Positions 2,949 to 18,471 of a DNA stretch of 21,767 nt are shown here, piece by piece (position 1 is the stretch's first letter; every line of letters starts with the position of its first letter). The notes beneath the pieces are model-generated. The model was not told the DNA's origin. It searched no databases and saw only the letters and a list, made by a program, of their open reading frames with translations. The translations under genes and the position numbers were made by a program. Source of the stretch: a virus; the IMG/VR virus record IMGVR_UViG_3300021512_000013, positions 1-21,767 of that record. The stretch is one strand, 5' to 3'.

Positions 2949-3138
2949 GTTCGGACTTTATCACAGCCAAAGCAATATCGTGTGCTGCTGATTTTTCTTC
3001 GAGCTTTTCAAACCGTTCGATGAAAGCTTCATGCTCTGCGGTTCGCTGCATCCCCGTGGTAGTGAAGATGTATCCTGCCAGCACCAGCAGGAGCGTGGTC
3101 GCTTTGTTCAAGAGATTGTTAGTTTTCGATTCACTCAT
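2923..3138 (-). CDS. Small membrane protein with C-terminal coiled coil
   Basis: A 71-residue protein with one hydrophobic helix near the N-terminus (ATTLLLVLAGYIFTT, about 13-27) and a charged helical tail (AFIERFEKLEEKSAAHD). Its ATG shares one base with the stop of the giant fibre gene (TGATG) and has no SD, so it is probably translated by coupling. It is the first of a run of small membrane proteins in the place where many phages keep holin and spanin genes. No endolysin lies nearby. The function is inferred only from size, topology and position. Confidence 0.65.
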   Translation of the reverse strand: MSESKTNNLLNKATTLLLVLAGYIFTTTGMQRTAEHEAFIERFEKLEEKSAAHDIALAVIKSEHANGEETP

Positions 3139-6100
3139 CAGATGTTTGTGATTGTTATTTCCAGGGCATCGGCGGCGTTTGACGCTGCGCCCGTACCGTC
3201 GCGGATAATGAACCTAACGACGGTGGCGGTCTTTGAAAGGATGTTCCAGAGTTTGATCCCGCCAGCGTTGCCAGTCGCGTCCATCACGTCAACGTGGAAA
3301 ACGTAATCCTTGCCCGCCGAGTCAGTGTTCGGGAGGGTCGATGGCATGGTTGCCTCGTACACGCCCGTTGTCGCCGTTTTGGTGAGGGTGAGGTTTTTAG
3401 CTTTATCCAGCGTTGGCGCAGAGGAACCATTGAGCGTCCAATAACCCTTGGCCATTGCGTGTTCGCAGCGCCAGTCGGCACTCGATGCCGTGCCGTAAGC
3501 CTCGAATTTGAGCTTATCGGTGGTCTGGTGGTAAATATCACCGATGGTCGCGGGCGTGGTCGTAGGGTTCGCGCTGCCGCTGGATACCACAGGGAAACCC
3601 TGCATGGTCTTCACTTCGGCAGGAGTCAGGCTCATCGGTGCGCCCCCGACTCCCGAGTTGTTGCCAACCATCGTGTCATCAGCAATCACGTCGATGTTGT
3701 CGGCCATCGTCTTGTGGGCGACGGTCATTGCGAACCGCGCCGTTCCGTTGGATACATCGTCCAGGTCAAGCAGCACTGCGCCGGTCTTGCCCGCAACCGA
3801 GTCCACGGTGTTCACTTCGGCGAGTGCTTCGATGCCGCTAAGTTTGGACAGCTCTGCCGCAGTGATGAACTTATTAGTGGTCGATGAATCGTCCAGGTCG
3901 TCAGGGTCTAAGACGACTACACCAGTCTGCCCGTTCACGGAGTCCACTGCACCGCCACCCCCGCCGGGGGTTAAGACCTGCCACGCACCGGCGGCGTAAT
4001 ACTCAAGAGCGGTCAACGTCGTGTTTACACGGAGCATAGACACCACGGGCGTACTTGGCCGCTTCCCGGTTGTACCGCTCGGGATCTTGACAGCGCCAGT
4101 TCCTTCTAGCTCAAGGTACCCTTCGCTGTCCAATAGTGACATCTTGAGAATATCAGTCGTGGCCCCAACTGCTCCGACGACCTCCGAGACTACGACCTCA
4201 CCGGCTGCGGTGTCTTGGCGGATGATTTTCGCACCTGCCGCGAGAATACCCCCCGTGGTAGGCTTGCCGAAAGCAACGGCAACTGTTGGTGCAAAAGTCA
4301 CAAATGTAGCCGCCGCAGGATTATCAGTATCAGCATTGCTGTTGATGCCGAGGTAATCCTCCATTTCAAACTCAGAGGGTGCGAACAAGAGACCACCATT
4401 GACGCTGCCGCCCCTGGCCCGCGACGACGCCGGGGATTCTATGTAATCCCAATCTCCACTCTGACTCTGTGCGCCCCACGCTCTCAGGGTGAGAACGGAT
4501 GGACGTGTACGCTCTTCCGCACGGTAAGCCCTGGCACTGAGTAAGGGGTTGTGCTCAAAGTTTGGAGCGCCCTTAATCTGTAGCTGAGGCCTGAACGAAA
4601 TGGCCGCAAACCCCGTATTGAACGGGTGCAGGATTGAGTAGAGGCCAACGTCACGGCCACTCGCGGAACCGCCAACGGTCGCAACGACTCCCGCAGGACC
4701 CTTCTGTGTGCGTACAGTTGTAGCCGTAGATTCTAGACCACGGAAATCGGTGCCGCGTCCCGAAAACACCGAGACCCCTGGGTCTACAGGCATGACCGGC
4801 TGCGGACGCTGAGTGCCTTCTGGGTAGGTTACGGGGCGTCCAGGCGGCTCGTTGGGCGGCTTGGCAGGGTGCGGGTTGTCAGGAGGCGCGACAGGCTTGC
4901 GCGGACGCAGGGGCGTAACGGCGCGACCTGGGCCGCTAGGCTTGATGATATCGTTCGGCGTCGCCGGACTCGCAGGCTTAATGATGTCGTTCGGCGTTGC
5001 GGGGCCGTACGGCGAAGCTGGCGCGGTAGGCGCTCCGGGGCTGTCCGGGGCAACAGGCGCGTTTGGACTGCCAGCCCCAGGCGTAGTTGGACTGCTAGGG
5101 GTGCTAGGGGTTCCCGTGGTAGGGCCAGACGGCCCACTCGGTGTACTCGGAGTGCTGGGCGTGGTCGGCGTCTCAGGTGGCTCCTTCTCTTCTTCCTCAT
5201 CGTCGTCCTCGGATTCAACGTAGGGCACCGTCGTCCACCAACGCCACTTGCCCGGACGGTTTCCGCCAATAAATCCATGAGTGGCCTTTTCATCCCATGA
5301 GAGGTGAACCAGTGATGGGATTGAGTGATCGCCGACGTTATCGGGGAACCTACCTTCAAACATAAGCGGGCCGTCTCTATCGCCGCTATCGTAGAAGTAC
5401 GCGCCCGACGCGATGTGCGCCGAGGTCATGGGGTGTCCGTCTTTATCAGTACCTACGCGGTGCTTGCCGCAGCCAAACATAATCGGCCCCGACGCGCTGG
5501 CGGACATGAACCCAACAGCGTGTCCGCCCTGAGCTTCCGACTGGAACGAGCCGAAATTGGCAACCGAGGTCTCTATGCCTGCGTTGGGGCCTTCGGGCCC
5601 GTTCGAGTCAAACGACCCGCCTCCCGGCCCAGCGAAACTGCCACCGCCAGGGTTTTCGGGTGGGGGTGGCGCTCCGGGACCAGCACCGCGTCCCATGTCG
5701 TTAGGAGTGATGGCGCGGTTCGGGCCAGTTTGCCCGGTCGTTGGACCACCGCCACCTCCGCCGCCTCCACCACCAATAGCGGGGCCATAGACCATGCCAT
5801 GGCCGAGGATGCCGTCTTGCTGAGATGCTCCGTAGTTGATTGCGATGCTGTTGAGGGGCGAACCTCCGAGCAGGGGTGCCGAGCCTTGCGTTAGGGCGAT
5901 GACGCGCACAAGCCCCTGCAAACGCGCGTGACGACCTCCCATGCCTGGGGTGTTGCTTCCGTCCATGCAAAGCACTCCCTCTGGCTGCATGTCAACGATG
6001 GTGGTTCCAGCTTGCCCCGGCCCGCTTACGTTTGCCGCTACGAGCCGCCGGTCGCCGTTGAGCATGACCGAGCTTGGCTTGGCTTCGTCGGTGGTCGGCA

Positions 6101-6533
6101 TGACCATTGCGAGCATTCCCTCTGGCTGCCACGGTAACACGCCCTGCCAAGCAGGTTGAAGCACCCGGTATCGGATGTCATTGACTTGGTGCGCTCCATT
6201 GCGCGTGAGCGGTTGGACACCCGCAGACCCCCCGTACCGCACGTCCGCCGAGTCGGTAACGATTCCGCCCCACGCCATTGACCATGACCCCATCGCGCGT
6301 TTATCGCGGTCTTTAGTCTGCCAGAAAAGCCAGGGGTGTACGTCGCCTAGAGTGCCGAGGCTGTGCTCACGAGCGTATTCGGTAACTTTTGATCTTCCAC
6401 CCTCGCCTGGTTGCGGGCGCACCTTGACCCGGCCACCAACGAGAGCCATACGCATACCAATCGGGACGCCATCCTCCACGTCTTGGAGCGGAAAGAATCC
6501 GAGGTCGGGCCAGTCGGTGAAGCCTTTGCTCAA
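3138..6533 (-). CDS. Giant tail fibre/receptor-binding-type protein
   Basis: A 1131-residue virion protein. Residues 1 to about 250 form a globular region. A Gly run (about 253-263) and collagen-like Gly/Pro segments follow, then another globular part. An acidic stretch (DDDEEEEKE, about 440) leads into a Pro/Thr/Ser-rich linker to about 580, with repeats such as TPSTPSTPSGPSGP and two copies of TPNDIIKP. The C-terminal third has two fibre-shaft repeats (VDSVNGQTGVVVLDPDDL, about 861; VDSVAGKTGAVLLDLDDV, about 908) and a terminal domain likely to bind the host. I chose a TTG start because it forms a TTGA overlap with the previous stop and no upstream in-frame start fits. The fibre role is inferred from repeats and position. 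Confidence 0.78.
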   Translation of the reverse strand: MSKGFTDWPDLGFFPLQDVEDGVPIGMRMALVGGRVKVRPQPGEGGRSKVTEYAREHSLGTLGDVHPWLFWQTKDRDKRAMGSWSMAWGGIVTDSADVRYGGSAGVQPLTRNGAHQVNDIRYRVLQPAWQGVLPWQPEGMLAMVMPTTDEAKPSSVMLNGDRRLVAANVSGPGQAGTTIVDMQPEGVLCMDGSNTPGMGGRHARLQGLVRVIALTQGSAPLLGGSPLNSIAINYGASQQDGILGHGMVYGPAIGGGGGGGGGGPTTGQTGPNRAITPNDMGRGAGPGAPPPPENPGGGSFAGPGGGSFDSNGPEGPNAGIETSVANFGSFQSEAQGGHAVGFMSASASGPIMFGCGKHRVGTDKDGHPMTSAHIASGAYFYDSGDRDGPLMFEGRFPDNVGDHSIPSLVHLSWDEKATHGFIGGNRPGKWRWWTTVPYVESEDDDEEEEKEPPETPTTPSTPSTPSGPSGPTTGTPSTPSSPTTPGAGSPNAPVAPDSPGAPTAPASPYGPATPNDIIKPASPATPNDIIKPSGPGRAVTPLRPRKPVAPPDNPHPAKPPNEPPGRPVTYPEGTQRPQPVMPVDPGVSVFSGRGTDFRGLESTATTVRTQKGPAGVVATVGGSASGRDVGLYSILHPFNTGFAAISFRPQLQIKGAPNFEHNPLLSARAYRAEERTRPSVLTLRAWGAQSQSGDWDYIESPASSRARGGSVNGGLLFAPSEFEMEDYLGINSNADTDNPAAATFVTFAPTVAVAFGKPTTGGILAAGAKIIRQDTAAGEVVVSEVVGAVGATTDILKMSLLDSEGYLELEGTGAVKIPSGTTGKRPSTPVVSMLRVNTTLTALEYYAAGAWQVLTPGGGGGAVDSVNGQTGVVVLDPDDLDDSSTTNKFITAAELSKLSGIEALAEVNTVDSVAGKTGAVLLDLDDVSNGTARFAMTVAHKTMADNIDVIADDTMVGNNSGVGGAPMSLTPAEVKTMQGFPVVSSGSANPTTTPATIGDIYHQTTDKLKFEAYGTASSADWRCEHAMAKGYWTLNGSSAPTLDKAKNLTLTKTATTGVYEATMPSTLPNTDSAGKDYVFHVDVMDATGNAGGIKLWNILSKTATVVRFIIRDGTGAASNAADALEITITNI
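4939..5000 (-). repeat. Two 26-nt imperfect direct repeats, 36 nt apart, in the fibre gene
   Basis: Copies at 4939-4964 and 4975-5000 differ at only a few bases and encode the repeated TPNDIIKP in the Pro-rich linker. A third, shorter relative (ITPND) lies upstream in the protein. The flanking 5080-5175 also has short tandem repeats encoding Thr/Pro/Ser. Confidence 0.75.
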
Positions 6534-8785
6534 GAGTCGCCCCCCGAGAATCGCACGATGCCGAGTACAACCTGGCGCGCGCCCTCGTTCATAAGAGCGA
6601 GGCGTGAAATTGGTTTCTGCATACCAGAGAACTCGTGCATGGCTGATACTTTACCAGACGGCGCGGCTGCTGCCTGTACGGTTGCCCCGCTCATGTTGCC
6701 AACGATTTTGAGGCCGTCTTCCGGCACGATGGTTGCCACGCGGCCCTGGATGCTGTCGGCAAAGTTGACGTACAATTCGGATGCGACCGACCGAGAGTGC
6801 GAAGCCAGCTCGCGGTTCTCGTTGGCGAGCGTGTAACCTGGAAGATTGTTGTCTGGAAGGCCGCTTTCGACTGGGTCATCAACATCAATGCCAAGCAGCC
6901 TGCCAACGGTTGCCGATGCTTCGGAATCGCTCGTCCAGGCGAATCGTGCGGTGGCCTCGGTGGGTGCTACAAACACCTCAAGGGGTGGCCCTTCGCCGTT
7001 ACCTATTCGCCAGTCCCCCTGCGTGAAGGCTTCGACTTCTGATCCGTCAATCTCCACGCGATGAAACTGCTGCTTATTGTTCGGCGCGCCTGGAATGATG
7101 GTTAGCAGAACGCGATAGCTCATGCCGTCGGCTAAGAAGATGCCGTTGCTGCCTCCCTCAACGACCACGCCCCCGCCCATCGGCTCGTCGTCCTGTCTGG
7201 CGAGGTTCCTTTGCGGCACTTTATAGCTACCGTCCTCTCCCACAAGCAAGCAGGGAAGGAATGCCTGATCGGTTCCGTAGGGAGACAGAACCCATTCGAG
7301 GCGGAAGATGCCTAAGTCGCGGTCGAGGATGTTCACCTTCGTAGGCCCATGCGGAGCCTCCACAGTGCGGTTCGAGAACTGGCCTTGTGTCGGTGCAAAG
7401 TAATCGACGTTGCGATACAGGTATGCCTCGCTCTCTTCCTTGCGCCGCGTCATGCGCTCGCCCTTCTTCGATGGGATGATTGTTGCCTGTCCCCAGACTC
7501 GCGCCGGAGCGCGGGTTCCCGTGTATGGGTCGAGCAGCATCGCGCTCACATTCAGAATGTCCCGCGTTCTATCCATGAGGCGACGGTTGATGCGGAAGCT
7601 CTGGCGGAAGTGCTGTTTGATAGCCTGAATCCGCATGGAGATATTCGCGGTGGTGTCGTGGTCTTTGCCGCCCGCACCCAGAGCGCCATCCAAATCGCCA
7701 TGCAGCCAGTGCATCGCAATCGTTTCAAAAGTCCATGGGTCAGAGTACGGCGGGCGCTGTGCATCCATCGCCTCAAGCCATGGGCGGAACTCTACCCAAG
7801 TTCCAGGCGGAAGGTTTGCCTTGGTGATTCTCCTTTTCAGAATCGGGTCGTACTCCGTAACGGTGGTGGAATCGTCCACGGTCTGGATCACGTTCTCGAT
7901 GTATGGCCTCGAATAGGACGGCTGTGAAATTGTCCCCCCGCTGTAGTTGTCTGAGTATTCAAGGAGGACTTCTACCTCACGCTGGTAGTGAACGACGATT
8001 TTGCTTGGCCGTATCGCCTTTCGGTTCACCACGACGGCCTTATCGCCGTCCCAGGTTGCCATAGGCAGCGAGTTAAAGTACGCCTCTGCTGCCGCGAGGT
8101 CTGCGCCGTTGATGATTTTGACGACACCTTCCGCCGTAACCCATAGCGTCGCTCCCGGAATGTAGGCGAGAAGGCGTGAAAGGGCTACGTCGCCCTGGTC
8201 GCGCAAGATGACGTTCTGCATCGTAAAGCTGCGCGTGCCACCCCCTCCCCCCTCGTTGATGGGGAAGCTCTCAATCACATAGGGAAAGCCGCCCGTCTCC
8301 TGTTGGAGTTGTTGCAACACATCCTCAAGAGCTGCGCGGGCGCTCCAAACCGTGTCGCCACCTTCGAGTGAATACCCTTTGTAATCGTATTGATCGGTCG
8401 TGACGAACCCTGGGAACGGCACATTGACCTGCGCGGTGCGGTCGCCTGTTTTCTTAGGGACGTTGTAGTCGCGTGAAATAAGCGGGTACTGCCATTTCCA
8501 GCGGCGGTCAGCCAGAACGAAACTTCTCCGCTTGGGGCCAGAGCTTGGTACAAGGTGCAGCAATGTGATATTGCTGATGGTGAGCTTCACCCCTCTCGCG
8601 TCAGTGATTACGAGGTCTGCCTCTTGCCCCAACTTGGGCGCGAGTTTCCCGAACCAGTCTCGGTGATAAACCGAGAAGGTTGCCATATAAGGACGCGGCC
8701 CTGTAGTGAACCTCCACGCACTCGTTGCCGTCGCTGCAAGCACGACACCCGCGTATGTGATTGTCGGTTTAGAGAGGTCGGGCAT
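6530..8785 (-). CDS. Tail hub/baseplate-like structural protein
   Basis: A 751-residue protein with no signal peptide or membrane span. Its N-terminal part is beta-rich (ITYAGVVLAATATSAWRFTT) and the middle has alternating beta and short helical segments, as in phage hub proteins of the gp27 type; a Gly run (NEGGGGGTRS) sits near residue 175. No lysozyme or peptidase motif is visible. The ATG follows the previous stop directly (TAGATG). Its place between the distal-tail candidate and the fibre supports a hub or minor tail role, where it would attach fibres and close the tube. I cannot assign a family from the sequence alone. Confidence 0.65.
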   Translation of the reverse strand: MPDLSKPTITYAGVVLAATATSAWRFTTGPRPYMATFSVYHRDWFGKLAPKLGQEADLVITDARGVKLTISNITLLHLVPSSGPKRRSFVLADRRWKWQYPLISRDYNVPKKTGDRTAQVNVPFPGFVTTDQYDYKGYSLEGGDTVWSARAALEDVLQQLQQETGGFPYVIESFPINEGGGGGTRSFTMQNVILRDQGDVALSRLLAYIPGATLWVTAEGVVKIINGADLAAAEAYFNSLPMATWDGDKAVVVNRKAIRPSKIVVHYQREVEVLLEYSDNYSGGTISQPSYSRPYIENVIQTVDDSTTVTEYDPILKRRITKANLPPGTWVEFRPWLEAMDAQRPPYSDPWTFETIAMHWLHGDLDGALGAGGKDHDTTANISMRIQAIKQHFRQSFRINRRLMDRTRDILNVSAMLLDPYTGTRAPARVWGQATIIPSKKGERMTRRKEESEAYLYRNVDYFAPTQGQFSNRTVEAPHGPTKVNILDRDLGIFRLEWVLSPYGTDQAFLPCLLVGEDGSYKVPQRNLARQDDEPMGGGVVVEGGSNGIFLADGMSYRVLLTIIPGAPNNKQQFHRVEIDGSEVEAFTQGDWRIGNGEGPPLEVFVAPTEATARFAWTSDSEASATVGRLLGIDVDDPVESGLPDNNLPGYTLANENRELASHSRSVASELYVNFADSIQGRVATIVPEDGLKIVGNMSGATVQAAAAPSGKVSAMHEFSGMQKPISRLALMNEGARQVVLGIVRFSGGDS

Positions 8786-10165
8786 CTATGTACCTGTTCC
8801 GCCTGGGCTTTCGTGGAGGCGTTCTACAACCGTTTCCGTCAGCGATGCCAGCTTGAGTTGGCCCTCGGCAGTTGGGTCGCCAATCCACCGCTCTTGAACT
8901 GCGCTTGTGTTACTCACAATATTCCACCCGTCGCTGACAATGTTTGCCCGCCCTTCGATGCGCAGCCCGCCCACAGGGTCGAAGTCGCCAGCGGCTCCGT
9001 AGCTTGGGGTTACGCCAATCCTCCTCTGCGGTATTGCGTTACCCAACACCACAACCGTTCGAGTCCAAACGCGCTCCACGACCGCCCACCCTGGGTCAGC
9101 GTAGGCTTCGACTTCGCTTCGTCCACCATGAACAGGCGTGTAGTCAATCGTTCGATTCTCTCGATAGGCGACGCTCTGCGAAACCTCAACAACCGCCTCG
9201 CCGCCATCCTTCTGGTAAAGGAATTGCAGGGTTGACGTGAGCCGCTTAGTCGTTTCGTCGTAAGAGATATTGCGGTCTTCAAGGCAGAAAACGATGGGAC
9301 TGAAATTGTCCTGGAAGGACTGCAAGATGAGCGGCCTCACCTTGTCCTCAAAGGTGGCGTACAGGTCGGTCGTCTCTTCGGTGTTGATGGCGCAATCATA
9401 GGACCCAACCACCCTACGAAGCCTTTGGATGCCCTCGCGGGAGTCGGCTGGATGCTGCGAGAGATCAGTAAATACCACCCGGTGGTCTCGGATGTCTGGG
9501 TCATCTAGGGCGCCGGTTACTTGGTCGGTAAGCAGCTCAACGTACTGGCGCTGGAAGTTGGTGTTAGCGGTGTTACGGTCCTGGTCGTAATCCTCCTCGA
9601 CAAGTTCCCATGTTGCCGAGCCGTCGATGCCAGAAAGGATTGACGTGAGGTAGGAGTCAGCGTTGGCGGTGTAGTTGCTGGTCGAAGTTGAACCACTCGT
9701 AGCGGTGTAGCTTCCCTGGAAGGTAACGCTCTTTTGGCGGCTCGGAGAAAATCCGACGTTGGTTGCGATTTCGAGGAGGCCGTTGTCACCGGAGGAATCG
9801 CTTGGCAGCTCTGCCTCGATTGTGATGGTGTAAGCCCTCGACAAGCCACGGTCGGTTTCGCTATCTCCACTCTTGGCAATGCTCGAAACAACATTGAAGT
9901 AATGGGTGCCAGAAGTCCAGCCCCACACCGTCGAGCCAGTATCTATTTCGAGGTCTTTGTCGCGTTCGCGGAACTTGGTTTCGAGCGTGTCGCTCAGGCT
10001 ACGCAAGGTGGCAGCACTCGTTGCGACAACAATCACATCGAAGATAACGCGGATGATGCGGTAGCTTTTGTCGATAACGTACGGCCCGTTAAGCTGGTAT
10101 GAGCTTGAGCTGCCGCCGATAGCCGTGCTGTTGTAGGTTATCTTGAAAGGATTGGTTACTGACAT
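8786..10165 (-). CDS. Putative distal tail/baseplate structural protein
   Basis: A 459-residue Ser/Thr-rich, beta-strand-rich protein. The N-terminus (NPFKITYNSTAIGG, then a strand-like RIIRVIFDVIVVAT) looks like a tail-tube or distal-tail beta-sandwich. A low-complexity SGSTSTSNYT stretch near residue 155 may separate two domains. The start has GGAG about 7 nt upstream and lies 4 nt after the previous gene; the stop abuts the hub-like gene. Position after the tape-measure-like genes and before the hub fits a distal tail protein. A baseplate or minor tail protein is equally possible. Confidence 0.55.
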   Translation of the reverse strand: MSVTNPFKITYNSTAIGGSSSSYQLNGPYVIDKSYRIIRVIFDVIVVATSAATLRSLSDTLETKFRERDKDLEIDTGSTVWGWTSGTHYFNVVSSIAKSGDSETDRGLSRAYTITIEAELPSDSSGDNGLLEIATNVGFSPSRQKSVTFQGSYTATSGSTSTSNYTANADSYLTSILSGIDGSATWELVEEDYDQDRNTANTNFQRQYVELLTDQVTGALDDPDIRDHRVVFTDLSQHPADSREGIQRLRRVVGSYDCAINTEETTDLYATFEDKVRPLILQSFQDNFSPIVFCLEDRNISYDETTKRLTSTLQFLYQKDGGEAVVEVSQSVAYRENRTIDYTPVHGGRSEVEAYADPGWAVVERVWTRTVVVLGNAIPQRRIGVTPSYGAAGDFDPVGGLRIEGRANIVSDGWNIVSNTSAVQERWIGDPTAEGQLKLASLTETVVERLHESPGGTGT

Positions 10166-10169
10166 GCTC

Positions 10170-10760
10170 TTACTCCGCCTCTAGGCCTTCGACGAAATAG
10201 TCTAAGGCTGCGACAAGCCCTCGGGCCGGGTTGGATTGATTGAGGTTGGTTAGGAAGACTTTGAGGTTTCCCTTGAGGGCAGTCTTCGTTGTCTCTCCTG
10301 GTTCGGCTCCAATAAATCGGGGGTCCTGCCGAATAAGGTTCCGCCCGCTTTCGACATCGTTTTGCATATCGTTGGCGATGTTGAAGAAGTCCATCATTCC
10401 TGCGGTTTCGCCAGTCTTTCCCACGTGGTAGTTGAATGCAGCCCTCGTTTGTTCACGCGCCGAGCGGTGAGCCTTGGCGGAGTAGCCAAGCTGTTCGTCC
10501 ACCATCTGTTTCGCTTTTGCGTAATATGGCGACAGGGCTTCGGCGAACATATCGACGTTGGCGGTCGGCTCGTTGTTCTTGAACTTGCCGATGGCTGAGG
10601 CGGCACCAGTAAAGGCGAAGGCGCGAGTCGCCATCCTTGAGGTTCTCTTGATTGCCGCCGAAGCTCGCTTGCGTGCGCGTACCTTGTGGTCGTTGAGTTC
10701 ACGCAGGTCAGCCTTCGCTTGGCGCGTGTCGGTATCGACGGGGATTTTGGCACTCGCCAT
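10170..10760 (-). CDS. Small tape-measure-like protein, paralogue A
   Basis: A 196-residue protein. The N-terminus (KIPVDTDTRQAKADLRELND) resembles the start of many tape-measure proteins. A basic region (RARKRASAAIKR) and a short Gly/Ala hydrophobic segment (about 44-58) follow, then a helical C-terminal half. It shares RSAREQT (99-105), a FFN/YFN triplet and a KTA segment with the upstream gene in the same register, so the two are paralogues. The ATG shares one base with the previous stop (TAATG) and has GGAGG upstream. It occupies the tape-measure position but is far shorter than usual (commonly 600 to over 1000 residues). It could also be an injected or tail-internal protein. Confidence 0.6.
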   Translation of the reverse strand: MASAKIPVDTDTRQAKADLRELNDHKVRARKRASAAIKRTSRMATRAFAFTGAASAIGKFKNNEPTANVDMFAEALSPYYAKAKQMVDEQLGYSAKAHRSAREQTRAAFNYHVGKTGETAGMMDFFNIANDMQNDVESGRNLIRQDPRFIGAEPGETTKTALKGNLKVFLTNLNQSNPARGLVAALDYFVEGLEAE

Positions 10761-11305
10761 TACTTGCCTCCGATTGGAAGAGCCTCGACAATGCGGTCGA
10801 AGCCTCCGGTGATGGTTTCGACAAGCGACTCGAACGCCGTCTTGACCGCCTCGCCGCCTAGCTCTTGATCGACGACCGAATTACCTCGTTCCGTTATTTC
10901 CCGGAGGCCTTTGACGTTGTTGAAGTAGTTTTTGATTCCAGGCGTTATGCTCGGTTCCTTCATGCGACCAATGATTTCGCTGTAAGCCGATTTTGTCTGT
11001 TCGCGCGCACTTCTCGTTGCCCTCGCTTCGGGGCCTCCAAGCATGTCGTCGATACCAGCGCGAAAGCCGACCGTGCCTTCTGAGATGACGTCAGGCATAA
11101 ATCCTCCGACGCGGGAAGCGGCTCGTTGAGCTAAACCAAATCCGGCACCTGCCAGCCCACCAAGGGCGGCGGATTGTCCAAGGCCACCAGTGAGGGAGTC
11201 GTTGACTTTACCTGCACTTTTCTCTGCCTCCTTGACCAGCTTCTTAAGTTCCCTTTTGCTGAGGGATGTGTCTATTTCAACCTTTACGCGAGCCTTCTCG
11301 GTCAT
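10760..11305 (-). CDS. Small tape-measure-like protein, paralogue B
   Basis: A 181-residue protein with the tape-measure-like start VKVEIDTSLSKRELKKLVKE, a long Gly/Ala hydrophobic stretch (LGGLAGAGFGLAQRAA, about 49-64) and a helical C-terminal half. RSAREQT at 98-104 and the following YFN (127-129) and KTA positions match paralogue A. The start is an ATGA overlap with the previous gene, with only a weak SD. It is too short to be a conventional tape measure alone. The Gly/Ala segment could be a membrane-active part delivered with the tail tip; this is inference. Confidence 0.6.
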   Translation of the reverse strand: MTEKARVKVEIDTSLSKRELKKLVKEAEKSAGKVNDSLTGGLGQSAALGGLAGAGFGLAQRAASRVGGFMPDVISEGTVGFRAGIDDMLGGPEARATRSAREQTKSAYSEIIGRMKEPSITPGIKNYFNNVKGLREITERGNSVVDQELGGEAVKTAFESLVETITGGFDRIVEALPIGGK

Positions 11306-11976
11306 CGGACTAGAGGCCCCTTACCTGCAAAGGAACGGATGGCATTGATTGCTTCATCAGCTCCAACCTTCAGCGCGTTCATGCTTCCTGCGATTGCCTT
11401 GTCTGCGATGCTTTCCAGGTGGTCGAAGGATGGCTCACGCTCGATGAGGTCCGAGCCGATTGCCCGTGCAATCTCGCGTTCCTTGAACCAGGCTCCGAGT
11501 TGTCCAACCTGCGAGTTGACCCGGTCTTGGATGCCGATGATTTTGAGTAGGTCTTCGTTCCCTTCGATGCCTTCTCGCGCACGAGCTGTACCCGTCGCAA
11601 TCTCATCGGTCTGCCCATAGATGGTGTTCTGGTCCATCGCTTCCAGGAGCCTCCCAGAGATTCCGCCTTCGGCGCGTCTTGAAACTGAACCAACTGCATT
11701 GACAACGTCCATCGCCAGTAGTGCAATGCCGACCGGCCCAGCAAGGCGGCTGCCTGCTTTGGCTGCAACTTTCCTGCCTAACCCGGACGCCTTGATAGCC
11801 CTCGCCGACTGCACTCCGCGAATGATTCTGGCCTTCCGCAGCTTGGAGACGATGGTGGACTTCTTTCGTTTAGCCCGCGCCAGCTTACGCTCTTCCACGG
11901 CCTTACGTCGCGGCGCGGAATCACCCTTCTGGGTGGCTCCTGGCGTAAATACCATGCTGTCGCGGTCTTTGCTCAT
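11302..11976 (-). CDS. Small tape-measure-like protein C (possible paralogue)
   Basis: A 224-residue protein with a strongly basic N-terminus (KLARAKRKKS and RKARIIRG), a hydrophobic segment (LAGPVGIALLAMDVVNAVG, about 78-96) and a helical C-terminal half. TARAREGIEGNEDLL (130-144) lies where the next two proteins carry RSAREQT, and resembles it weakly. The layout of basic N-terminus, central hydrophobic part and helical tail is the same as theirs. The start overlaps the previous stop as ATGA. It may be a diverged third member of the set; homology is less certain than between the other two. The basic region suggests DNA contact inside the virion. Confidence 0.55.
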   Translation of the reverse strand: MSKDRDSMVFTPGATQKGDSAPRRKAVEERKLARAKRKKSTIVSKLRKARIIRGVQSARAIKASGLGRKVAAKAGSRLAGPVGIALLAMDVVNAVGSVSRRAEGGISGRLLEAMDQNTIYGQTDEIATGTARAREGIEGNEDLLKIIGIQDRVNSQVGQLGAWFKEREIARAIGSDLIEREPSFDHLESIADKAIAGSMNALKVGADEAINAIRSFAGKGPLVR

Positions 11977-12761
11977 GTCGCCAAGTTAGCCCCCAGTTCG
12001 CGTCCGTTGCTAGAACCTTCAATGGCAGTTCCGCCACGGGTTCCGTAGTCTGCAAAAATGGAATACGCCTTGCCAGCCACGGGTGCGACGGTCGTGAGCG
12101 CAGCGGTTCCGGTGTAGACAACCGTGTCTAAGTCGTCGGGGGTTTCTGCTGGCGTGGTTCCATCGACGTAGCCGAGGCGGTAACGGATGAAGTCGAATCT
12201 CGCCGAGCACTGGTCGCCCTTCCACGTCCAATCACTTCCAGACTTAGCAAGCCGCGTCGGGTGCGTGTAGCTCGGTGCCGCCGTAACCCAACCCGCGAAG
12301 GTCGATTCACCAATTGCAAGGTGGCGACCACGGCCAAGGCGTACGGGCGAACCCGCTGATGTGGCGTTAAGTTGCAGTGCAGCCCCGTCGATTCCTCTCA
12401 GGTCTTTGAGCGCATCGCGTACGCGGTCGTTGAGTTCCAGTACGCCACGGTTCGCCGACGTTCCGAGGGAACTTTTCGCGCCCCCGGTAAGTGCGCGCTC
12501 GCCCATTCTTCCGCCCGACACGTCGGCAACTGTGAGCACGTCGAAGGTTTGATCGAACAGGTTTGGGTCGTCTGGGTCGCCTGTTCCGCCGCCGATGTTT
12601 ATCTGTGCGAACGGAAAAGAACCAGGCAGCTCATCCTCATCTGGGAGGCCAGCCACAACGAACACCATCCTCTCCCCAAAAACGAGGTTGTTAGGACTCT
12701 CCGGCCAGACCGCCGCCTCCAAGACGTGCTTAATCTGCTGCGCCATTTGCCGCGAGTTCAT
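11973..12761 (-). CDS. Tail-terminator-like protein with C-terminal extension
   Basis: A 262-residue protein. I chose the ATG at 12761 over one 27 nt upstream because it forms an ATGA overlap with the previous stop and has GAGGAGG about 7 nt before it. The first 140 residues follow the tail-terminator pattern: an N-terminal helix (MAQQIKHVLEA), a core strand (SFPFAQINIGGG), another strand (FDVLTVADV) and a helix (LELNDRVRDALKDL). About 120 further residues include an Ig-like looking C-terminus (DTVVYTGTAALTTVAPVAG). Terminators usually lie before the tube gene; this one lies after it, so a different neck or tail role is possible. Confidence 0.5.
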   Translation of the reverse strand: MNSRQMAQQIKHVLEAAVWPESPNNLVFGERMVFVVAGLPDEDELPGSFPFAQINIGGGTGDPDDPNLFDQTFDVLTVADVSGGRMGERALTGGAKSSLGTSANRGVLELNDRVRDALKDLRGIDGAALQLNATSAGSPVRLGRGRHLAIGESTFAGWVTAAPSYTHPTRLAKSGSDWTWKGDQCSARFDFIRYRLGYVDGTTPAETPDDLDTVVYTGTAALTTVAPVAGKAYSIFADYGTRGGTAIEGSSNGRELGANLAT

Positions 12762-13207
12762 GCTTTGACCTCCTCGGCACCGAAGCAAGAGGGGTGCACC
12801 TTGCCAGCCTCGCGCACAGCGGAGGTCTCTGCGCGGCGTTTACCCACCCCACCCATCGACAGGCTATCTGACTGCGTCGCCCCGCACGGGTCGCCCTGTG
12901 CAATCCTACGGCCAACCTCTTCGGCAAGAGCTACGGCGTTAAGACCTTCGAGGGTCGCCTCGGCATCCTCATCGCCATCTTCCGCAGCCAACCCCAGCAG
13001 TGTTCGCTCAGGGTCAAGGACGGCGAAGCCTGCTGCCACGGTGAGGTCTTCGAGCCAAGCGTCGCGGCGGAGCGCGATTGCTTCCTGCACGTCCGGCGAC
13101 TGTTGCAAAAACCAGCCGAGTTCAAACTGAACGCCAGCGCGGATAGCACGGTCGAGGGAGTCTTCGGTGAGCGTGACTTCTTTGGGTTTGTTCCACGGGA
13201 ATCTCAT
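12758..13207 (-). CDS. Small protein at the tail-assembly-chaperone position
   Basis: A 149-residue protein. The ATG at 13207 is preferred to the in-frame one 60 nt upstream because it gives an ATGA overlap with the tube gene. Its N-terminus is RFPWNKPKEV, followed by acidic helical segments (LDRAIRAGVQFELGWFLQQ and others); the C-terminal third is more basic with GGVGKRR. The place just after the tube gene is typical of tail assembly chaperones, which often show a programmed -1 frameshift. I see no clear slippery site or extended second frame, so the chaperone call rests on position only. Confidence 0.5.
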   Translation of the reverse strand: MRFPWNKPKEVTLTEDSLDRAIRAGVQFELGWFLQQSPDVQEAIALRRDAWLEDLTVAAGFAVLDPERTLLGLAAEDGDEDAEATLEGLNAVALAEEVGRRIAQGDPCGATQSDSLSMGGVGKRRAETSAVREAGKVHPSCFGAEEVKA

Positions 13208-13770
13208 AGCGTCAAGTCCTCCATGTGGCCCATGTCTAGAATCTGGTTGCTGGAATTGCGCAGGCACTCAATCGATATGCCAAGGCCTAGCTCCTCGCTG
13301 CGTTGGAAGGCCAACTCTGCACCGTCGGAAAAGTCCGGGATGCCCGCACGAATGATTAGGGCCGGGTGGTTGTGCGTGTCATCTGGTGCGAAGAGCCAAA
13401 CGAGCGCGCGTCCTGTGGAACTCTGCCCCGGCGTTTTAGTGCCTGGCTCTGTCCACACGGCATTCTGGGTCGTTGCGCCCTCCGCATACCCACCGGCCAA
13501 GAGGCTAGATACAGCGCCCTGGTCCCAACCGCGAAGGAAAAACTGAGCGATATAACGGTTGTTGCCTTCAAGCACGTCGGAGGCTTCGCCGAGGCCTTCG
13601 CACTCGATGCGGTACGGAGTACCCAAGGGCAGGAGCACCACGGCCCTAGTTGAGCCGATGATTTTGCCGCCGTACTCGCCGGTCCCCGCCGCGTCTCCGA
13701 GATCGGTCGGCGAAGCGATGATTGTGCCCGGTGCGCGGATGACACGGGTTGAGTTCTTAAACGTCGTCAT
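13204..13770 (-). CDS. Putative major tail tube protein
   Basis: A 188-residue beta-rich protein starting TTFKNSTRVIRAPGTI, with a GGKIIGSTRAVVLLPLGTPY segment and a long loop, as in many siphophage tube proteins. The start shares a base with the previous stop (TGATG) and has GGAGG about 8 nt upstream, a good signal suited to a highly expressed protein. Its neighbours (tail completion before, chaperone-position gene after) fit. No sheath gene is nearby, so the tail should be non-contractile. The family call is from pattern and position and is not certain. Confidence 0.65.
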   Translation of the reverse strand: MTTFKNSTRVIRAPGTIIASPTDLGDAAGTGEYGGKIIGSTRAVVLLPLGTPYRIECEGLGEASDVLEGNNRYIAQFFLRGWDQGAVSSLLAGGYAEGATTQNAVWTEPGTKTPGQSSTGRALVWLFAPDDTHNHPALIIRAGIPDFSDGAELAFQRSEELGLGISIECLRNSSNQILDMGHMEDLTL

Positions 13771-14357
13771 CAGCGAACCTCCATGATTGCAACCTTGACG
13801 GTAGCGAGAACGTCGTTAATCGTCTGCTTTGTGATGCCCACAAACGGACGCGCAGGCACTTCGCCCGTGAGCTTGGTGTCTGTGAACTTCTTATTCAGGA
13901 GCCACCCGAGCTGGTCCTTGAACCCTACGCCTTTCTTTGTTTTCAACCACTTCCCTAGCGATTTCTGCACCTCAGGGGTGATTGTCTCGCTCTCAATCTT
14001 CCCGCCGTGGTGGAGTACCGCGGCGTATTCAAGGTTCGACCCGACCTCGACCGCCTTGCGCCCCAGAACCCTAAAGGCGATTGACGCCGAAAGCCGACCC
14101 GTATCTCGGAGGGTCTTGGAGTTCTCGAACCTTCGCGCAGGCGGCTTACTGCCCTTGGCGAAGTCTGCGATGATTCCGTATACGTTTACGGGAGCGCGAG
14201 GCTCCCACTTGTCCCTTCCGTGCTTCTGGTCACGAAACGACCGCTGCGACTCGGCAACCATAAGGACGCCGACTTGCTTCAACGCTACGCGCGGGTCGTC
14301 GAGGTTGGACTCCCACCGCTCAATCTTCGCGCCTTTCTTGAAAGTCGCCTTAGTCAT
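13770..14357 (-). CDS. Tail completion/virion morphogenesis protein (Mu gpG-like)
   Basis: A 195-residue protein with the landmarks of the Mu gpG/P2 gpS family: a W in KWEPRAP (W51), LRDTGRLSASI (83-93), then VEVGSNLEYAAVLHHGG (103-119), with its near-invariant VGSN, YA and H/G positions. Family members act at the head-tail junction to finish or attach the tail. A basic C-terminal part (KWLKTKKGVGFKDQLGWLL) extends it. The start follows the previous stop by 5 nt. Its position between the connector candidate and the tube agrees. Confidence 0.82.
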   Translation of the reverse strand: MTKATFKKGAKIERWESNLDDPRVALKQVGVLMVAESQRSFRDQKHGRDKWEPRAPVNVYGIIADFAKGSKPPARRFENSKTLRDTGRLSASIAFRVLGRKAVEVGSNLEYAAVLHHGGKIESETITPEVQKSLGKWLKTKKGVGFKDQLGWLLNKKFTDTKLTGEVPARPFVGITKQTINDVLATVKVAIMEVR

Positions 14358-17007: not shown

Positions 17008-17994
17008 TTAGGTGTTGGTCGTCTTGATTGCGCCGTAAGGCAGGGCGATACCTGCACCAGAACGGAGCCACCACTGGATTGACTCTTCGGCAGTGCTACG
17101 AGTGCGGTCGCTGTTGTTGTCCTCCATTAAAGAAGACTCTTCCTGCACGCCCTCGCGGTCGAGGTAGAAAGTAGCCTGCTTCGGTGGGTCTCCGATGAAA
17201 GCGTACCAGTCGTTCGCATCAGTCAAGCGTGGGCTTGCCCACAACGTTACGTTCTTAGCAGTATCCGAAATCAGGTTAGACTTCGAACCACCGACAGAGG
17301 TATCGCCGAGTTGCTGCTTCTGACGGAACGCCGTCTCCATCGCCTCGGTCAGTTCGACCGGGTGAATGATGACGACCGGACGTTGAAGGATGCTGTCGCC
17401 CAAAAGCGGCTGGCCCTCAGTATCCTGGAACTTCATAAACTGCATCAGAACGTCGTAGTAGTCCGACAAGATCTGACCTGACGTGGCACCAGAGCCAGTC
17501 AGCAGGTTTCCGTTTGACGCGCCAAATCGAGCCGCGCCACCAGCGGTGGTTGCAAACATTGCAGCACCGTCAGGGGCGGTCGGGATGGACGGCAACAGAC
17601 CCGCGTTGTTCTGAACCAAGTCGAAGAACATGCGCTCAGGAAGCAGTGCAGCAGACTCAGCAGTCTGTCGAGCAACCTCAAGCAACGAACCAGTCTGGTC
17701 GTCATCGCGGTCCCACTTGAGCCATGGGATACGGCGACCCCATTCGTGTACGGTTGCAGTGAACTGTACCGAATTCATGCCCTTCGAGGTAATCTCGTCG
17801 CCGCGTCGCCAATGAACGATATTCGGAGCCGACTCGAAGTATGCGAACTCGTGTTCACGGTTGGTTGCGCCAACACTCAAATCCATGACTTGAGCTAGGC
17901 GAGAATCAGCCAGCCGGTTCTTGATGGCCGAGTAAGTGTCAACAAACTCGGTACGCAGACCGTTAGCTAGGACTTGTGAAGAGTTTACTTGCAT
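17008..17994 (-). CDS. Major capsid protein (Mu gpT-like)
   Basis: A 328-residue protein of the size and layout of the Mu gpT major head family (about 300 residues). The region FTATVHEWGRRIPWLKWDRD with DRDDDQTG (95-102) matches the family's conserved acidic segment, and LLPERMFFDLV (117-127) fits the helix after it. A Gly/Ala-rich segment (DGAAMFATTAGGAARFGA) follows. The protein forms the HK97-fold shell. The ATG lies 3 nt after the decoration gene and has no clear SD, odd for such an abundant product. A hairpin terminator follows the gene. Neighbours (gpI-like protease, decoration protein, gp29-like portal) agree with the call. Confidence 0.82.
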   Translation of the reverse strand: MQVNSSQVLANGLRTEFVDTYSAIKNRLADSRLAQVMDLSVGATNREHEFAYFESAPNIVHWRRGDEITSKGMNSVQFTATVHEWGRRIPWLKWDRDDDQTGSLLEVARQTAESAALLPERMFFDLVQNNAGLLPSIPTAPDGAAMFATTAGGAARFGASNGNLLTGSGATSGQILSDYYDVLMQFMKFQDTEGQPLLGDSILQRPVVIIHPVELTEAMETAFRQKQQLGDTSVGGSKSNLISDTAKNVTLWASPRLTDANDWYAFIGDPPKQATFYLDREGVQEESSLMEDNNSDRTRSTAEESIQWWLRSGAGIALPYGAIKTTNT

Positions 17995-17997
17995 GGT

Positions 17998-18471
17998 TTA
18001 TACCCAGTCAGCGTGTGCGGTTGCGACGCCAATCATGTGCTGGGCGGCGGTGAAGAGTTGAACGTCGGCATCTGTTGCCGAACGCCACCCGATGACGTAC
18101 CCGATAGGTGCGTCAGTAGTCGGCTGCGTTACGGTTGCATTGTCGAGGTTGGAGTCGTTGCAGTAGACAAGCTCGCCCACCACCGTCGAACCCGTTACGG
18201 GAATACCGACGACGACAGTACCGCTCGCGTCAACACGAACCGTAGGGTCTGGTGAGAGCGAAGTGTCGCCAACAGGCTCACCATCGGAGTTAGTGTTCTC
18301 ACCACCGATGACGATGCCGAGCAAAGTGTTCGTGCCGTCGTAGTGGTTAGCGAACCCGCTCTCGGCTTGTACGAGAGTACCTGTCGGGAGGGTGATACCG
18401 TTAGCGATTGGAACGGCAAGACGGCGAGCGTCTTTGGTAACGTACTGTGTATTTGTGCTGCGGTCAGCCAT
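17998..18471 (-). CDS. Capsid cement/decoration protein (DUF2190-like)
   Basis: A 157-residue beta-rich protein with ADRSTNTQYVTKDARRL at the start, then NGITLPTGTLVQAESG and later VRVDASGTVVVGIPVTGST. That is the small repeated-strand layout of phage cement proteins encoded beside the major capsid gene. Such proteins bind and stabilise the expanded shell. The start has AAGG about 9 nt upstream and is 14 nt after the protease gene. The capsid gene follows by 3 nt. The call is from pattern and context. Confidence 0.68.
   Translation of the reverse strand: MADRSTNTQYVTKDARRLAVPIANGITLPTGTLVQAESGFANHYDGTNTLLGIVIGGENTNSDGEPVGDTSLSPDPTVRVDASGTVVVGIPVTGSTVVGELVYCNDSNLDNATVTQPTTDAPIGYVIGWRSATDADVQLFTAAQHMIGVATAHADWV

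Follow-up and report, generated by a model that had tools for sequence, protein, structure and literature searches.

The question raised by this locus is what measures the tail of a virus that carries three short genes at the place where a single tape-measure gene would be expected. The usual view of a tape measure is of one long protein that determines, by its own length, how long the tail becomes, and the classical siphophage tape-measure genes are usually several times longer than any of the three genes concerned. The stretch of DNA analysed (the window, 21,767 bases of an IMG/VR viral record) is probably a fragment of a longer genome, and carries a head module of Mu-like type with a tail module after it, both on the minus strand. 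The initial annotation had described three consecutive products of 224, 181 and 196 residues, and the corresponding reading frames (here named A, B and C) were confirmed at that place and with those sizes. Judging from sequence, they probably represent a tape-measure and pilot module that is short, heteromeric and encoded by several genes. The features of the tail region, in the order of transcription, are:

13770-14357 (-): neck/tail-completion protein, 195 aa (Pfam Phage_tail_S, E 1.3e-11; PHROG 26, E 5e-22)
13204-13770 (-): predicted tail tube protein, 188 aa (AlphaFold2 fold and Foldseek)
12758-13267 (-): small gene between the tube and terminator-like genes, putative chaperone from its position only
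11973-12788 (-): terminator-like protein, 271 aa, putative role (PHROG tail terminator only at E 0.65)
11302-11976 (-): paralogue A, mini tape-measure-like protein, 224 aa (profile comparison, tree)
10760-11305 (-): paralogue B, mini tape-measure-like protein, 181 aa (profile comparison, tree)
10170-10760 (-): paralogue C, mini tape-measure-like protein, 196 aa (profile comparison, tree)
8786-10165 (-): conserved protein at the Dit position, 459 aa, putative role from position
6530-8785 (-): conserved protein at the tail-hub/Tal position, 751 aa, putative role from position
3138-6533 (-): fibre-like protein, 1131 aa (PHROG families of unknown function, best E 1.6e-10, residues 793-862)

A, B and C fill the slot between the terminator-like gene and the tail-tip genes. 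The A and B genes overlap by ATGA, and B and C by TAATG; as read from these overlaps, the three are translationally coupled. The Dit, hub and terminator identities are putative assignments made by position. Family and PDB searches with the 459-aa and 751-aa proteins returned no match, and a PHROG scan of the small gene upstream of the terminator-like gene gave no family match. In two relatives, the counterpart of the 1131-aa fibre-like gene is matched by tail-fibre families. A further minus-strand gene (967-1548), which lies at the edge of the tail/lysis region, specifies a product resembling a 2-oxoglutarate/iron prolyl-hydroxylase (HxD...H pattern recognised by eye), and a similar gene is found in another contig (L014, 10554-11129).

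The tail tube could be recognised by its fold. The 188-aa protein was modelled with AlphaFold2 using an alignment of 24 sequences (pLDDT 82, pTM 0.77), and a Foldseek search with the model returned tail tube proteins as the top PDB matches, the best being 9jgh (E 7.6e-6), with others to Bxb1, Douge, YSD1, JBD30 and lambda gpV. Tail tube matches were again obtained when the model was compared with the BFVD viral library. The protein is accordingly modelled as having the fold of a tail tube protein. With a tail tube present, the virion would have a tube whose lumen must be filled, and within the slot no candidates other than the mini-proteins are present. No sheath gene was recognised. One related contig (L070) shows two matches to the tail tube gene (5517-6063 and 17474-18008) that lie about 12 kb apart, and these may represent a second tube, a second phage or an assembly artefact.

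That A, B and C are genes and not chance reading frames is indicated by the recurrence of the A-B-C order, with the same neighbours, in seven other IMG/VR contigs representing six lineages (L006, L002, L003/L004, L007, L008 and L025; L003 and L004 are near-identical), and by pN/pS values of 0.26-0.49, which are rough because synonymous sites are near saturation. Among the close contigs, identity to the window is 46-62% for A, 61-72% for B and 45-57% for C, and all three diverge faster than the neighbouring tube and Dit-like proteins.

The initial annotation considered two of the proteins (B and C) to be paralogues and the third (A) to be a weaker match. The relationship of B and C is borne out by hhalign (E 5e-14 over 136 columns, six sequences on each side) and by deeper alignments, which scored 147 against a shuffle maximum of 19.4. 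For A, the weaker match describes what is seen with the six closest sequences alone, where no kinship to B/C was detected, but not what is seen once distant relatives are added; A and B then scored 83.9, compared with maxima of 14.9 in 59 column shuffles and 15.8 with a reversed alignment. Profile HMM searches gave the same picture, as the A profile retrieved B of a distant contig (L030, E 1.6e-12) and the B/C profile retrieved A of the same contig (E 1e-9). The comparison of A with C alone is non-significant (score 23, controls 17-18), so the two are linked by way of B. In a tree of 44 rows, A forms one clade (support 99/97, 17 contigs), while C forms another (support 100/100) that groups with B and occurs only in the three-copy group; B is paraphyletic to C. 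By these profile comparisons A, B and C are one protein family, with B and C linked directly and A and B through intermediate relatives. As all three share the same conserved C-terminal region, they would have arisen by tandem duplication and not by fission. The suggestion of a split tape measure, in the sense of a gene cut into pieces, is ruled out because A, B and C align with one another over the same region, and copy number varies from one to three among relatives.

Several features of the three proteins resemble those of tape measures. The N-terminal third of A is very basic (net charge +18) and a hydrophobic segment spans residues 78-96. B starts with VKVEIDTSLSKRELKKLVKE, followed by a Gly/Ala segment and a conserved C-terminal region (REQT...GR...ERG), and C starts with IPVDTDTRQAKADLRELN and includes RSAREQT... 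and ESGRNLIRQDPRF. A start motif, V-x-V-x-L-D-T-x-x-A-K-x-x-L, which we take to resemble the starts of tape measures, is present in B, C and three orthologues of A; A of the window does not begin in this way. The membrane-type hydrophobic segment of tape measures is present and is clearest in A, the 19-residue hydropathy values in the window being 1.68 for A (up to 2.5 in its relatives), 1.05 for B and 0.54 for C, the last two weak.

Further contigs were recruited by searches with tube and hub alignments, and about 40 related loci were compared. The slot between the terminator-like and Dit-like genes measures 639 bp where it holds one copy (L041/L077), 1217-1465 bp where it holds two (about 30 loci, some near-identical) and 1808-1914 bp where it holds three, and so steps in units of one gene. 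Most loci hold two or three paralogous genes, and a long tape-measure gene is absent from the slot in all of the approximately 40. The mini-proteins are 180-293 aa in length. The single copy of L041 (210 aa) clearly belongs to the A/B/C family and is of the B type. The most distant loci (L054/L099 and L098) carry a single slot gene of about 260 aa; these genes are related to each other (E 1e-5), and no kinship to A, B or C was detected. A is adjacent to B in nearly all loci. One contig (L087:7363-10001) shows a changed order, in which the Dit-like gene precedes B and A. Across the approximately 40 loci, the mini-proteins occupy the position of a siphophage tape measure, as defined by a tube assigned by fold and by terminator and Dit genes assigned putatively.

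The lack of a long tape measure, as first described for the window, holds for its 21.8 kb (a fragment of its genome) and also for two contigs of relatives (44.7 and 46.2 kb). The large products of these two comprise a portal, a DNA polymerase, a helicase or primase, a fibre, an esterase-like protein and, in the 44.7 kb contig, a terminase recognised by Pfam; none was identified as a tape measure by Pfam or PHROG, although a few received no assignment. The 44,659 bp contig also carries a 1085-aa frame (L055:9654-12911, plus strand) that combines a Mu-type portal (E 4e-36) with a C-terminal zeta-toxin/AAA kinase (E 8e-26), a fusion that would be unusual. A protein of about 670 aa is encoded upstream of the portal in two contigs (L055:6611-8641 and L059:7802-9808), the first of which has a weak match to acetylesterase (SASA, E 0.004). 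In a more remote contig of 42.8 kb (L005/G004), the sole part in common with the group is about 106 residues of the hub N-terminus (31% identity). This contig specifies a possible tape measure of 544 aa (L019:15433-17067) in which no kinship to the group was recognised; the contig could represent an outgroup that has one longer ruler.

When A, B, C and their orthologues were scanned against Pfam and PHROG, no tape-measure family was matched significantly, and the profile matches that point towards tape measures are weak. PHROG 1204 ('tail protein', a profile of 1483 positions) matches B of a relative (E 1.4e-5), and in three contigs its matches lie only at or beside the B gene. PHROG 8927 (tape measure) weakly matches one relative (E 0.008), and the B/C profile finds its closest PDB match in 8h2m, a chain named 'Tape tail measure protein' (weak, E 0.05). 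These signals agree with one another but are individually weak. A match of B to the TrbC/VirB2 pilin family of Pfam (E 0.0018, below the curated cut-off) is likely to be an artefact of the Gly/Ala segment. Because a significant family match is absent, we infer a tape-measure function from position, start motif, hydrophobic segment and the weak profile matches. The earlier proposal of a multi-subunit tape measure agrees with the finding of paralogues in the tape-measure slot together with a tail tube gene, and its functional part stands at the level of that inference. Searches of INPHARED (tblastn) with the capsid, tube, Dit-like, hub and mini-tape-measure proteins, and with two N-terminal 50-mers, returned no match, and thus no cultured relative. 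Scans of bacterial and archaeal genomes with the Dit-like and hub alignments found no relatives, and hence no host.

We lean towards the view that A, B and C, as tandem paralogues, jointly take the place of the single long tape measure of a siphophage-type tail (tube, no sheath). The copies would lie side by side in the lumen of the tube as a hetero-oligomer, the simplest form of which would be a trimer comparable to the RcGTA homotrimer, with their shared C-terminal region anchored on the Dit/hub complex. The tube would polymerise around them until capped by the terminator-like protein, and on infection they would exit first. A could then act as an inner-membrane channel or pilot, as it has a hydrophobic segment of membrane length after a strongly basic N-terminus. 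Relatives would use A and B, or a single copy. At 0.15 nm per residue, the tail predicted for a parallel bundle of proteins of about 180-250 residues each is short, about 27-38 nm. The more specific picture, of a siphophage lineage with a heteromeric tape measure made of duplicated and subfunctionalised mini-proteins, each contributing one strand and encoded by one to three genes, is plausible and is put forward tentatively.

The differences between the copies allow another reading, in which only one of them is the ruler (most likely B, the least variable in length) while A and C are separate pilot or ejection proteins of common ancestry. The strong hydrophobic segment and basic N-terminus of A, the weak segment of C, the retention of only a B-type copy in L041 and the displacement of B and A behind the Dit-like gene in L087 would all suit such a division of labour. 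We nevertheless regard it as unlikely, given that A is kept beside B in nearly all loci and that the conserved C-terminal region is common to all copies. It is more doubtful still that the trio are assembly chaperones or other tail proteins, with the true tape measure elsewhere or absent. In its favour, the window is a fragment and no tape-measure family is matched significantly, but the chaperone place is already taken by the gene at 12758-13267, A, unlike chaperones, has a membrane-length hydrophobic segment, and the 44.7 and 46.2 kb relatives offer no long tape-measure candidate. The three may also be injected tip proteins of a virus with a very short tail.

Improbable as well is an end-to-end arrangement in the lumen, where the lengths of the copies would add to give tails of about 31 nm (one copy), 66 nm (two) and 90 nm (three) at 0.15 nm per residue. 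The summed lengths (210, about 450 and about 610 residues) do form a graded series, but the start motif common to B, C and three A orthologues, and the C-terminal region common to all, suit side-by-side anchoring better. A parallel arrangement is also preferred because B stays at 180-204 aa in both two- and three-copy loci and the single copy of L041 is of similar size. We know of no mechanism that would order tape-measure copies end to end.

If A, B and C do form a parallel, heteromeric tape measure, the nearest single-gene analogue would be the tape measure of RcGTA (Rcc01694, g11; Rhodobacter capsulatus), which has about 216 residues (113 + 83 + 20) and forms a trimer; the RcGTA tail contains five tube hexamers (PMC7296036). 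Compared by description, it is likewise short, belongs to a tube without a sheath and fills the lumen of the tube and distal tail. It is the product of one gene, a homotrimer with a long N-terminal helix and a beta-rich C-terminal part, whereas the loci described here carry one to three paralogous genes, and most of them two or three. The tape measure of roseophage R4C has also been discussed as a trimer, the membrane segments of which may form a DNA channel (PMC10276861). Lambda gpH, TP901-1 and SPP1 gp18 are alike in their slot before the distal tail gene, in their hydrophobic segment and in a presumed lumen location and ejection role, which we presume for the trio also. They are single genes, while the proteins here measure 180-293 aa and have been multiplied through duplication of their genes. 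Where duplications are known in tape measures, they consist of repeats within a single gene (PMC3271669), and multiple paralogous or split tape-measure genes were not found to be reported in the open-licence part of PubMed Central. The ejection proteins of podoviruses (T7 gp14-gp16; P22 gp7, gp16 and gp20) are similar in forming a set of distinct proteins presumed to exit ahead of the DNA; they come from phages without a long tail tube, and are ruled out here by the tail-tube fold of the product of 13204-13770. The head module (portal, MuF, protease, capsid) is Mu-like, and Portal_Mu matches the portal of a related contig. It differs from Mu-like systems in that no sheath gene was recognised and in the lack of INPHARED matches to the capsid and tail proteins.

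The group of relatives with one, two and three copies provides a natural experiment on how tail length is set. Tails of equal length would indicate copies lying side by side, and additive lengths copies lying end to end. Comparison across the copy series would also separate the ruler role from the membrane-channel role, two functions that are normally combined in one protein.
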